64,000 nucleotides of DNA from Bacteroidales bacterium (lineage in GTDB: Bacteria > Bacteroidota > Bacteroidia > Bacteroidales > JAADJA01), in NCBI GenBank assembly GCA_021740645.1, contig JAIOZL010000007.1:1-64000 (forward strand), given 5' to 3'. Position numbers and translations under genes: made by a program. Numbering within the stretch: the first letter of the stretch is position 1; every line of letters starts with the position of its first letter. The notes under the pieces are model-generated. The model ran no database searches. It was not told the DNA's origin and saw only the letters and a list, made by a program, of their open reading frames with translations. Below are positions 52,869 through 59,061 of the stretch, piece by piece.

Positions 52869-53597
52869 ATGTTATCAAGAAACAACTTTGGAGCAGGTGT
52901 TCAAACAAAAATTGAATCGACCGACCTTGCTAAAAATTTTATAGCCAATGTTTTTGCCTGGATGGGCATTGCACTGGCCATTTCGGCCTTTACGGCCTTT
53001 TATTTTGCTACCAACGAAAACCTGATCTTTTCGCTGATCAACCCCGAAACCGGCGGCATGACGGTATTGGGTTGGATTGTCATGTTGTCACCTTTTGGGT
53101 TTGTATTGGCTATGGGCATGGGATTTCAGAAATTTTCCGCCAGCACGCTTATTCTCTTGTTTGGGGCCTTTGCCATTTTAATGGGGGCCAGTTTGAGTTT
53201 TATCCTGCTGGTTTATACCTCCGCCTCTGTTTTTAAGACGTTTGTGGTAACGGCCGGGATGTTCGGAATTATGTCGTTTGTGGGCTATACCACCAAAACC
53301 GACCTGACCAAATTTGGCAGCCTGATGTTTATGGGCCTGATCGGGATCATCATTGCCAGTGTGATCAATATGTTTATGCAAAGTGGTACGTTTGATTATA
53401 TCATCAGCTTTATCGGTGTATTGGTATTTACCGGACTAACGGCCTATGATGTTCAAAAACTCAAGAGGATAGGGGCAGGCGTACAATACGGTACCGAATC
53501 CACCCGGAAACTGGTAATCATGGGCGCCCTTTCGCTCTACCTCGATTTTATTAACTTATTCCTGTTTTTATTGAGGTTTTTAGGGAACCGGAGGTAA
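52869..53597 (+). CDS. Bax inhibitor-1 / YccA family membrane protein
   Basis: BI-1 type hydrophobic segments, TGLTAYDVQKLK signature; start at MLSRNNFG because a TATATTTG -7-like box at 52820-52827 sits just before the upstream ATG. Confidence 0.9.
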   Translation: MLSRNNFGAGVQTKIESTDLAKNFIANVFAWMGIALAISAFTAFYFATNENLIFSLINPETGGMTVLGWIVMLSPFGFVLAMGMGFQKFSASTLILLFGAFAILMGASLSFILLVYTSASVFKTFVVTAGMFGIMSFVGYTTKTDLTKFGSLMFMGLIGIIIASVINMFMQSGTFDYIISFIGVLVFTGLTAYDVQKLKRIGAGVQYGTESTRKLVIMGALSLYLDFINLFLFLLRFLGNRR

Positions 53598-53636
53598 AAG
53601 CATCTAATCAGATTGTTCCAAAATAGAAAACAAAAA

Positions 53637-53670
53637 GTTGCCAGGTTCATAGAGCCTGGCAACTTTTTTT
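53637..53670 (+). terminator. Rho-independent (likely bidirectional) terminator
   Basis: Perfect 9-bp stem gttgccagg/cctggcaac, T7 on + and A5 (T on -) on the other side, between convergent genes. Confidence 0.9.
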
Positions 53671-53706
53671 CAAATGTGGATATCAAAATGAAGTATATAG
53701 CCTGAA

Positions 53707-54275
53707 TTACTTCAATACGGTCATTTTTTTACTGTCACTTATTGTTCCATTTAATTCGAGCGTATAAAAATAAATTCCCGGGGCTAATCCACTTGCATTA
53801 AATTCAAATGAGTGATTACCTTCAGATTTTGTACCCTGGTTAATTGTTTTTAATGATCTGCCGGCACAATCATATATTGTTATAATTACCCGTGACTCAT
53901 TCTCAAGCTTATACCAAATATTAGTGGATGTTTTAAATGGATTAGGGGAATTCTGTAAAAGTTCACCATGTTTTAATCCGGATATTGTGCCTGGTGTACC
54001 TGGTGACTTTTTATCTCCGGGCAACAATGATATCAGGTAATGGGTATATTCCGCATGGGCCTTCATTGATTCGGGGATATATTGTGGCATTGAGCCAACA
54101 AACTGTGATGATTTGGCCCCTCCTTGCTGCATTAGTAAATAGGTGGCCTGTAAATCAATAATAGCATGAATAGAATCGGCAAAGGAAGGAGAATTAAGGA
54201 TCATATTTTCAAACCAGCTAATGGCATCCGGCCAGTTTGCAAGTTTGAGACAATCAGTTCTGGTAAGAGGGGTGG
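53707..54275 (-). pseudogene. Remnant of a T9SS type A secreted protein (C-terminal ~190 aa only)
   Basis: C-terminal LLQNSPNPFKTSTNIWYKLENESRVIITIYDCAGRSLKTI..GIYFYTLELNG; open frame continues upstream of the called ATG (SNTTPLTRTDCLKLANWPDAISWFEN) to a stop with no start or signal peptide. Confidence 0.65.
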
Positions 54276-54312
54276 TATTCGATTAGGAAAGGACTGTTTA
54301 TATTTTTTGGCA

Positions 54313-55275
54313 TTAAACATCCGTTCCGTTTGCTGCTTCAAAACACCAGGAAACCTCAGAGGCTGAATTCAAGTCAAAAGTAAAGATCATCTGTGCACAA
54401 TCAATATCTTCCATAGGTTGTGAGATGCCGGAAACGGGATAATTGGCCATATTGTACTGATCCACGTGAAAAGCCATATAAGGTTCAGCACCCGTATTTT
54501 TGACCGGTACACCGGTAAAAAAAACAGCCAACTGGTCGCCGTGGCCGAGGGCTTTGAGTACATACTCCGGGTCTTGTATCTCACCTTTCATCTCTGCTAT
54601 TACCTGCTGTATGGTTGCGTAGGTGGCGGGGCCGTCAATGTCGTTGGATTGAATTTCAGGGCCATCTAAATCATCATTCCAATTATTTGAATAATTATGG
54701 CCATCATAACTGTATAAAACTATAATGTTCTCTTTTTTATAATTATAGTTATCAATCAGCACATTGAATATTAAGGACACGTTTGAAATATTACGTATAT
54801 CATCTAAAGCACATATTATCAAAGCATAATTATAGCTGCTTTCCACCTTTTCAGGAGTAGGTATAAATGCAGTACCTTCCATTGGGATCGGATCGGGACG
54901 ATTTGCAGTAGAAATTACCTCGTAATCAGTTGATAAATACTTTGGATAAATCTCTTTGCTAACTGTTGTATAATCACCGTTTGACGTGCTTACAAAAATA
55001 TAACGACATGGGTGGTACCATGCAGCGAAGGGTGAGTCATTTACATAAAACACCCAGGAATCAGCATTAGGGTTAGTTGCATTATCATTGTCTATTAACT
55101 CAACATCATCCGTAAAGCTGTTAAAAGAAGCATATATGTCAATTTTGTTTAGATCATCTGAAAGGACATCATTAAGGATCAGGTCAATGGCTTGCTGGCG
55201 TGTGAACTGAGCAAAAGTTGTCGTTGCCAAAAAGAAAGCAACTAACAAAAACAATAAAAATTTAAACTGTTTCAT
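54313..55275 (-). CDS. Secreted C13/caspase-like peptidase-type protein, probably 3'-truncated
   Basis: Signal peptide; SSYNYALIICALDDIRNISNVSLIFNVLIDNYNYKKENIIVLYSYDG, GHGDQLAVFFTG; no sorting domain at the C-terminus. Confidence 0.6.
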   Translation of the reverse strand: MKQFKFLLFLLVAFFLATTTFAQFTRQQAIDLILNDVLSDDLNKIDIYASFNSFTDDVELIDNDNATNPNADSWVFYVNDSPFAAWYHPCRYIFVSTSNGDYTTVSKEIYPKYLSTDYEVISTANRPDPIPMEGTAFIPTPEKVESSYNYALIICALDDIRNISNVSLIFNVLIDNYNYKKENIIVLYSYDGHNYSNNWNDDLDGPEIQSNDIDGPATYATIQQVIAEMKGEIQDPEYVLKALGHGDQLAVFFTGVPVKNTGAEPYMAFHVDQYNMANYPVSGISQPMEDIDCAQMIFTFDLNSASEVSWCFEAANGTDV

Positions 55276-55291
55276 AGTTTTACAAATTTTG

Positions 55292-56728
55292 TTAATGTTT
55301 GATTAGTTTAATTGATTTAAAAAATATCCCATCTGTTTGTACAACAGCAAAGTAAATTCCCGGCTTAACCTCGTTATTATTAAAATCACAGGCATTCCAG
55401 CTTAATAAATTTTTACCTCCTTTCTTAAAATTTGTGGTTAAACTGAAAACGTTTTTACCTCGTAAATCATAAATGGAAATATTTAATTTAGAGCATTGTA
55501 TTTTTGAAAAGTTAAAATTTATTTTTTCTGTAAATGGATTTGGAAAAGCCTTAATATCTGAAAGGCTTTCGGACTTTTCAGGTACGTTTGTTATTGGGTC
55601 AGGCACAAAGTTACCTTCCCCGTCATTGAACAGAATTATTACATTATAGGGCAGCGTCATTTGTGTACTGATAATTGTAACAATATCATTGAAACCGTTC
55701 CCGTCAAAATCATTACAATCCAGGCTTCCCAACTGGTAGCCAAGATTATTAATATCAATATTTTGATCATATTCCAGTTGAAAATCCCCCAGATTATTAT
55801 AAATTAATAATTCTGAATGGTCCCAGTCAATAAAGATCATATCTGGTAATGAGTCATTGTTAAAATCAGAAATTTGTCCATAAGCACAAAAAGGTGAAAA
55901 CTGGAAATAATCGTGCTCTAAAAACTGGTTGTTGCCATTGTTTTCAAACATATATACACGATGGTTAGGGTAAACAAAAGTTGTATGTGTTATTATATCG
56001 TTGTCACCATCATTGTCAAAATCGGAAATCGAAACATCATGGCTTAATGTGGTAGTTAATACAAGTTGTTGGAAACCGGTATCATTACTGAAATATATTT
56101 CAGTATCTGAACCGGAAATAACAACATCTGCCCTGCCGTCATCATTCAGGTCAGCACAAGCAATATCAATGGGTGGGAAAGTTAAATCAAAATATTCGGG
56201 AGCTGTAAAGTTGCCGGTTCCATCATTGTATATTATTCCCCAAAGAAAATCATTGTTTGATATAAAGGCAAAATCAATGGCATCATTACCAGAAATATCC
56301 CCATAAATAAAATCGGTTAAATGATTGCACATTGGAAAATAAGAAATATAATAATTGCCATTGTTTATTTCAATAATAGCAACATTTGTTTGCTGACCGT
56401 CATAAAACCTGCCTAATATTTCTGGGTATTCATTTCCAATAATATTAAATGAATAGATAATGTTTTGACCACCATACATGTATAGTGTATCTTTAATTTC
56501 GAATATTCCGTTCTCAATATTTTCAAAAAATGTTATACCACTCCAATTAGATATAGAACTATAATTATGGCCAAAAACAATATCAGCATCACCTTCTAAA
56601 TCCAGGTCATTTGAAATAACAGAAATAGCAGATATTGGTATTTGATACTCACTCTTACTATCTCCTATTTTTAAAGAAAGAAATAGAAAAGCGAAAATGG
56701 CGATTATAGTATATTTTAATTTTTTCAT
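55292..56728 (-). CDS. FG-GAP/VCBS-repeat surface protein with T9SS type A sorting domain
   Basis: Repeats of the type DLNDDGRADVVISG, DFDNDGDNDIITH, DFNNDSLPDMIFI; C-terminal AFPNPFTEKINFNF..GIYFAVVQTD. Confidence 0.85.
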   Translation of the reverse strand: MKKLKYTIIAIFAFLFLSLKIGDSKSEYQIPISAISVISNDLDLEGDADIVFGHNYSSISNWSGITFFENIENGIFEIKDTLYMYGGQNIIYSFNIIGNEYPEILGRFYDGQQTNVAIIEINNGNYYISYFPMCNHLTDFIYGDISGNDAIDFAFISNNDFLWGIIYNDGTGNFTAPEYFDLTFPPIDIACADLNDDGRADVVISGSDTEIYFSNDTGFQQLVLTTTLSHDVSISDFDNDGDNDIITHTTFVYPNHRVYMFENNGNNQFLEHDYFQFSPFCAYGQISDFNNDSLPDMIFIDWDHSELLIYNNLGDFQLEYDQNIDINNLGYQLGSLDCNDFDGNGFNDIVTIISTQMTLPYNVIILFNDGEGNFVPDPITNVPEKSESLSDIKAFPNPFTEKINFNFSKIQCSKLNISIYDLRGKNVFSLTTNFKKGGKNLLSWNACDFNNNEVKPGIYFAVVQTDGIFFKSIKLIKH

Positions 56729-56787
56729 AACGTTATGTTAATAAGGTTATTATTTTTGCAAAATGTTTCATAGTCTTACAAATACAG

Positions 56788-58219
56788 TTAAATTTTGAGC
56801 AGTTTAATTGTTTGTAGGGCTTTACCGTTTACCGCAAGGTAGGCAAAGTAAGGGCCGGGGTTGCAGGTGTGGTTACTGTTGTCAACCCCGTCCCATTTTA
56901 TGTTATAAATACCTCCTTCCATTTTTTTATTGACCAAATCAATTATCGGCTTACCTTGCACGTTATAAACGGCCAGCTCCACCCTGGCTGTTTCATTTAT
57001 TTTGATTTTAATATTTGTTTCGTGTTTCATTGGATTTGGGGAACATTCAATGTAAATGTTATTATCTGCTTTTTCAATGATCTTTGTAATTGGGTTTTCC
57101 TGAAAATTTCCTTCTCCATCATTAAATAAAATATTTAAATAGAATTCTATCTGCCCAAATCCACTTATAAAAGTTAAATCTTTATATCCGTTATTGTCAT
57201 AATCTTCACAATACAAACCTCCAAGTGTCAGATTATCATAAGAGATGAATTGTTGGAATTCTAATTCAAAATCTCCAGGATTATTATAAATATGTAGACC
57301 GGAATGGTCTGATGCTATAAAAACAATGTCAGGCAATGAATCTTTATTTAAATTAGCTATCTGTGCATAGGAGCAAAAAGGTGAGAACTGGAAATAATCG
57401 TGTTCAAAAAACTGGTTGTTACCGAGGTTTTCGAAAAAATATACTCTATGGTTTGGATAAATAAAAGTGGTATGAGTAATTACATCATTATCCCCATCAT
57501 TGTCAAAGTCAGAGATTAACACATCATGACTTAAGGTTGTTGTTAAAACAAGTTGTTGAAAACCTGTTTCAGTACTAAAATATATTTCTGTATCCGAACC
57601 GCAAACCACAATATCTGCCCGGCCATCATTGTTTAAGTCCGCACAGGTAATATCAACAGGAGGGAAACTTAAATCGTAATATTGGGGAGTTGAAAAGTTT
57701 CCTGTTCCGTCATTGTATATAATTCCCCAAAGTAAATCATTATTGCAGGTAAAAACTACATCATTATCATTATCATTGTCAACATCACCATCAGCAAAAT
57801 CATCAATAGCAGAATCATCATTTGTATAAAATATTTTTAAACTATCAAACTGGCTAATTCCATAATTGTAAATCATTGCAATATATTCAGTTGCCCCAAT
57901 TTGATGCCTGCTGTATAAATCAATATATTCATTGTTGTCAAAATAGTTACCATGAACAACAGGAAATCCATGATCAAAATAAATCGAATCAAATAAACCA
58001 TAATATCCTGATCCATCATTCATTAAGAATACCCCCCCCCCAAGAAGTTTGAGGAAAATAATTACTCCCTACAACAATATCAATGTAATTATCTAAATCT
58101 AAATCAGCACTAAAAACTGATACAGAGCCAGTGGGTACAAGGTATTCACTTTTACTATCCCCCAAAGTAAAAGCAAGTAAAACAAAAGATAAAATAATAA
58201 TATATTTTGAGGTTTTCAT
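56788..58219 (-). pseudogene. FG-GAP/VCBS-repeat T9SS surface protein interrupted by G10-tract frameshift (possible phase-variable gene)
   Basis: ORFs 58016-58219 and 56788-58023 are the two halves of a paralogue of the 55292-56728 gene; the join is at C10 (58032-58041, + strand). Confidence 0.8.
58032..58041. repeat. Homopolymer C10 (G10 on coding strand)
   Basis: Read directly: gaata-cccccccccc-aagaag. Confidence 0.95.
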
Positions 58220-58413
58220 ATTACAGCTTATTTAGTACAGTTATTACAAAAAATTTAATGGTTTTATTTTACCAAATTAGTTTATTAAGGTCTAAATCAA
58301 CAACGAAGGATTTTGATGCTATAAATATATAGAAATAAATTTTCATTTCAATAACAAATCAGTTTTCAGTTGGATTTTTTAAGTTAAATGTTTTAAATTG
58401 TAACAGATCCTTT

Positions 58414-58806
58414 TTAAACCTCAAAATACCATGGCACACCGGTAAAAAAAACGGCAAGCTGGTGGTCGTGGCCGAGGTCGTTGGTCAGCTGGGCTATGGT
58501 GCTCTGGATGTTGGCCCAGGTGGCGGGGCCGTCGATGTCGCCGTCGGGGTTTAATGGGCCATCTAAATTATCAAACCATCCATTTGAATAATTATGGCCA
58601 TCATAACTGTATAAAACTATAATATTCTCTTTTTTATAATTATAGTTATCAATCAGCACATTGAATATTAAGGATACGTTTGAAATTTTACGTATATCAT
58701 CTAAAGCACTTATTATCAAAGCATAATTATAGCTGCTTTCCACCTTTTCAGGAGCAGGTATAAATGCAGTACCTTCCATCGCTACCGGGTCAGGACGATC
58801 AGCCAT
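58414..58806 (-). pseudogene. Truncated duplicate of the C13/caspase-like peptidase gene
   Basis: Collinear with the central part of 54313-55275 (RPDPxxMEGTAFIPxPEKVESSYNYALII...AVFFTGVP), lacking both N-terminal signal region and C-terminus. Confidence 0.8.
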
Positions 58807-59061
58807 TGATATTTCAACATAGACGAAAGATTCTTATGAATAAGACATATATAAGGTTCACCTGAATTTTTTTTATAATTGCATAATTATTCAATGATAC
58901 TTGAAATAGATGGAAAGACTTTTCAAAAAATATAATCCATGGCAAGGATTTACTTTTAACCTGGGCTTCATCCGAAAAGATTATCCCAATAAATAAGGAA
59001 AATATGCCCTCGCCCCCTCCGAATGTAAGCCTACAAAGTTATTCACAGGAATTCTCAGGCC

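Follow-up and report, generated by a model that had tools for sequence, protein, structure and literature searches.

Homopolymer slippage is a classic means of phase variation in host-adapted Proteobacteria and Campylobacterota, and the known route to phase variation in Bacteroidota is DNA inversion. To our knowledge, switching by simple repeats has hardly been described in the latter phylum, and no report of a homopolymer switch on a T9SS cargo was found in the open-access literature searched. The locus described here lies in a 64,000-nucleotide window (the whole stretch of DNA that was analysed; positions 1 to 64,000 of contig JAIOZL010000007.1) from the draft genome of an uncultured Bacteroidales bacterium (G000; 5.06 Mb, 83 contigs). 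It resembles the poly-G/C loci of Campylobacter jejuni and Neisseria in carrying a tract in the G9–G11 range in the coding frame near the 5′ end, in the occurrence of in-frame and out-of-frame lengths amongst related genes, and in having a surface-exposed product, which is predicted here. It differs from them in its host, in its cargo (a T9SS FG-GAP propeller), in the small number of tracts per genome, and in being known from assemblies alone. The DNA-inversion phase variation of Bacteroides fragilis occurs in the same phylum and switches surface structures; however, whilst that system employs invertible promoters and recombinases, the variable element here is a homopolymer, and no inverted repeats of at least 25 nt were found within 53500–59000. 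The encoded protein is like T9SS-dependent FG-GAP/VCBS repeat proteins in its FG-GAP_3 repeats and T9SS type A sorting domain, and its predicted propeller is of the integrin-α head and PHL lectin type; what sets it apart is the tract, which one clade has in addition.

The tract is a run of ten Gs on the minus strand (C10 on the plus strand), located within the interval 58016–58045 that a sequence-only reading of the window had highlighted. The features of the locus are as follows:

58032–58041, minus strand: G10 homopolymer at which slippage is proposed; its codons specify Trp-Gly-Gly of the first FG-GAP blade
58016–58219, minus strand: 5′ part of the split gene, a 67-residue ORF with signal-peptide-like N-terminus MKTSKYIIILSFVLLAFTLGDSKSEY and a TGA just past the tract
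56788–58023, minus strand: 3′ part of the split gene, a 411-residue ORF with FG-GAP_3 repeats (PF13517) and a T9SS type A sorting domain (TIGR04183)
55292–56728, minus strand: intact tandem paralogue of 478 residues that has FG-GAP repeats and a T9SS sorting domain but lacks the tract
54313–55275, minus strand: N-terminal remnant (320 residues) of a partner gene conserved downstream of the FG-GAP family
53707–54204, minus strand: C-terminal remnant (165 residues, T9SS sorting domain) of the partner gene; the middle is missing, with stops between the two remnants
58414–58813, minus strand: relic (0.4 kb) left by a second partner-gene copy, on the upstream side of the split gene; shares 91% identity with 54659–54916 across 258 nt

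The 67-residue ORF ends TGG GGG GGG GGT ATT CTT AAT GAA TGA, and its stop is overlapped by the ATG of the 411-residue ORF, from which any product would be made without the signal peptide. Joined in one frame, the two ORFs encode 476 residues followed by a stop, compared with 478 for the adjacent paralogue, which at the aligned site reads TGG AGT GGT ATA and contains no stretch of six or more Gs or Cs. The sequence-only reading had claimed a G10 tract splitting an FG-GAP/T9SS gene, these joined and paralogue lengths, and a paralogue without the tract, and it proved correct on each point. Both domain assignments are borne out by profile matches (PF13517, E 2e-19; TIGR04183, 24.9 bits against a cut-off of 23), and the N-terminus is hydrophobic and signal-peptide-like by eye. 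The genome as a whole encodes no fewer than 150 T9SS type A sorting domains (150 of 302 candidates scored), indicating a very large predicted secreted repertoire.

The tandem paralogue is a mosaic: alignment columns 200–280 are 82–89% identical to the split gene and 44–56% identical to its own orthologue in G014, whereas outside these columns it is mostly nearer the orthologue than the split gene. Recombination among neighbouring copies would widen surface variety. The partner gene, which is open and longer than 1059 residues in another locus (L101), appears caspase/C13-like by eye, although the window remnant has no Pfam match. The 91% identity of the upstream relic to part of the N-terminal remnant points to a recent duplication or conversion.

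Homologues were sought in the genus and in samples of the order and of the class, yielding about 30, and tract lengths were compared across species and paralogues, each genome being one assembly per species. Poly-G occupies the same codons in five genes, from three genomes and two families, with lengths of G10, G9, G9, G11 and G15. The nearest homologue (63% identical to the split gene) is in a Bacteroidales MAG (G008, contig JAIOTR010000370); it has the same type of N-terminus and a G9 run at exactly the same codon pair, in frame and open up to the contig end, which is the sole G run of at least 9 in that 3.0-Mb genome. No stop interrupts the 411 codons of the 3′ frame of the split gene, and its differences from the G008 homologue at codon positions 1, 2 and 3 number 100, 62 and 175, respectively; the intact frame and the third-position excess would fit a recent loss and a reversible one alike.

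The other three tract genes are in G113, a genome of another family. Its C111 homologue has G9, in frame and open; in the C57 homologue, a G11 tract puts the gene out of frame and splits it as in the window; a third copy, on C161, has G15 at the same site, in frame, on a contig that ends four bases past the tract. Of the five G runs of at least 9 in G113, three occupy this site and one more interrupts a secreted gene nearby. In a tree from which the G15 copy was left out, being too short to place, the four tract genes form a six-member group (86/92) with tractless homologues from G002 and G009, and two label changes suffice. Homologues beyond this clade keep Trp-Gly-Gly or Trp-Ser-Gly, spelled GGA GGT, GGA GGC and the like. 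Judged from these sequences, the tract is confined to one clade, and its absence from the nested relatives G002 and G009 implies that it is not essential to the FG-GAP family. No new tract-bearing homologue emerged from 395 genomes across the class and the family of G113, the latter represented in the set by G113 alone.

The fold predicted for the intact G008 protein is all-β and propeller-like (mean pLDDT 75.5, six sequences), and the tract residues (59–61) are modelled in a strand (57–66) close to the N-terminal end. Solved structures closest to it are propellers of a generic kind, among them LGI1, integrin α-IIb and a Photorhabdus lectin (10–13% identity), a resemblance that suggests ligand binding without pointing to a particular ligand.

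We consider that the tract is probably a slipped-strand simple-sequence contingency (phase-variation) locus, which is OFF in this assembly, and put the probability of this reading at roughly 0.78. A repeat of hypermutable-type length is located in the coding frame (G10 here, G9 to G15 in relatives), related alleles differ in length (9, 9, 10, 11 and 15, among species and paralogues), and length toggles the gene between full-length and truncated forms: G9 is open in G008 and G113 C111, G10 and G11 are split, and G15 is in frame to the contig end. The sequence-only reading had assigned ON to G9 or G12 and OFF to G10, with which these lengths agree, and its proposal of phase variation gains support at the level of comparative genomics, the same-site tracts of relatives being found in both frame states.

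In the proposed mechanism, slipped-strand mispairing during replication would add Gs to, or remove Gs from, the tract. Tracts of 9, 12 or 15 would keep the T9SS sorting domain in frame with the Sec signal (ON), and a β-propeller protein of ~476 residues could be exported, then displayed or released via the T9SS. At lengths of 10 or 11, a stop a few codons past the tract would leave a stub of ~67 residues (OFF), and any internal restart product would be without a signal peptide. Since the export signal is in the 5′ part and the propeller and sorting domain are in the 3′ part, an out-of-frame tract would uncouple export from cargo. The slippage rate, its reversibility within a population, export, and a role in adhesion or ligand binding are points that we infer. 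C. jejuni is without mismatch repair, and switching rates here may therefore be lower than in that species. In C. jejuni, tracts of G9–G11 have switching rates of 1e-4 to 1.6e-3 per division, and G9 and G10 are the lengths to which they mostly converge (PMC8355987).

The case for a contingency locus is built on homology and on the position, conservation and frame effect of the tract, which go beyond chance; run length alone is near it. Extrapolation to 5.06 Mb from the run-length decay in 84 kb of the window's contig predicted 33.5, 7.1 and 1.5 G/C runs at minimum lengths of 8, 9 and 10, respectively, compared with 28, 7 and 3 observed in the genome (Poisson P about 0.19 for at least 10). The observed counts being near expectation, the length of the G10 run is not by itself beyond chance; tract length as standalone evidence was rejected, as was a general poly-G enrichment of the genome (28 observed versus 33 expected). 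That genomes of such size hold some long G/C runs by chance lends weight to the main competing explanation, which we nonetheless regard as unlikely: chance and descent would have fixed Trp-Gly-Gly in its GGG spelling, the run would slip through its length, and G10 would be a passing loss of a dispensable paralogue, mechanically reversible but not a selected switch. The adjoining intact paralogue, the already decayed partner gene and the tractless G002 and G009 all favour this explanation, whereas under it several distant homologues would be unlikely to have kept both GGG codons. At the other glycines that tract-bearing genes share, the counterpart of a GGG codon is also GGG in 20 of 57 cases (35%); retention of both codons in three further homologues would have P about 0.002 if independent, a value that serves as a guide only, since the homologues are not fully independent. 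In view of the 35% retention, an argument from codon conservation at full saturation was toned down. The tract nevertheless appears, on modest numbers, to have been kept beyond what codon use and descent would give. The clustering of long G runs of G113 at this one site likewise argues against an incidental run, as does a control, a similar G10 run within a second FG-GAP gene of the window's genome (C57:147709, 766 residues): it codes Gly-Gly-Gly in frame, and the run is kept in none of 14 aligned orthologues, though most retain the glycines. Being in frame and not conserved, the control run was rejected as a second switch; a further G10 of this genome lies between genes (C76:25815).

Still less probable is an assembly or sequencing error concealing a true G9 and an intact gene. 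In its favour, errors are common in long G runs, the genome sequence is a draft, and two relatives are in frame at G9; however, the other ORF-borne G8–G10 runs of the genome (about 21, in long ORFs) are all in frame, including the G10 of the 766-residue gene and runs in genes for an alanyl-tRNA synthetase, an arginine deiminase family protein, a flotillin-like FloA and a GidB-family rRNA methyltransferase. The assembly therefore does not generally mis-size G/C runs, and the window tract is the only run of at least 8 seen to split a gene in this genome. An independent assembly, that of G113, has its G11 tract (C57) at the same site likewise out of frame. The frame contrast also favours a contingency locus, in that the same-site lengths escape the triplet constraint: 2 of 5 are out of frame versus 0 of ~21 of the other runs (Fisher P 0.03; the P values on the tract rest on few, related sequences). 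The least probable account, to which we give very little credence, is programmed recoding, in which ribosomal frameshifting or transcriptional slippage on the G run would yield some full-length protein. Homopolymers promote slippage of RNA polymerase and ribosomes, a process named as recoding (PMC3711429), and small amounts of protein might leak through in this way while the gene is OFF. Against this, the shift needed is none at G9 and G15, +1 at G10 and −1 at G11, so that no single programmed shift is conserved among the homologues, and single-strand structure around the site is unremarkable (z −0.84, DNA parameters).

Other G runs were noted in these genomes. In a second secreted family (~415 residues), a G12 run splits the G113 C57 member (L127, 3132–3143), which adjoins the split C57 homologue, and a G9 run at a different site splits the G098 C60 member (L243, 1498–1506); three paralogues on G113 C174 are intact. 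Dispersed intergenic repeats with a poly-G core take the forms TTGATATTA-G10/12/12/14-...GAATATCA and TTTGA-G9/G10-TAATATGTTGAT, and are located as follows:

G014 C164, C224 and C324; G012 C199; G002 C107 and C144 (L177, L179, L182, L174, L162 and L164): intergenic poly-G-core repeats

Their differing core lengths suggest that G runs in G014, G012 and G002 change length. Several contigs end at, or a few bases from, a G run (G113 C161:5–19, G011 C290:2–10, G011 C304:1–9 and G014 C231:2–10), which would be expected were tract lengths to differ from cell to cell or assemblers to break down at such runs.

Beyond the single locus, we tentatively propose, at less than even odds, that free-living Bacteroidales of different families carry conserved poly-G switches on T9SS-secreted β-propellers, each genome having several paralogues that switch independently of one another and swap segments. 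This would give combinatorial surface variation parallel to, but mechanistically unlike, the DNA inversion of the phylum. If the phase-variation reading is true, surface proteins of uncultured environmental Bacteroidales would be switched stochastically, perhaps without an immune host, in which case phage or partner binding would be the indicated pressure.
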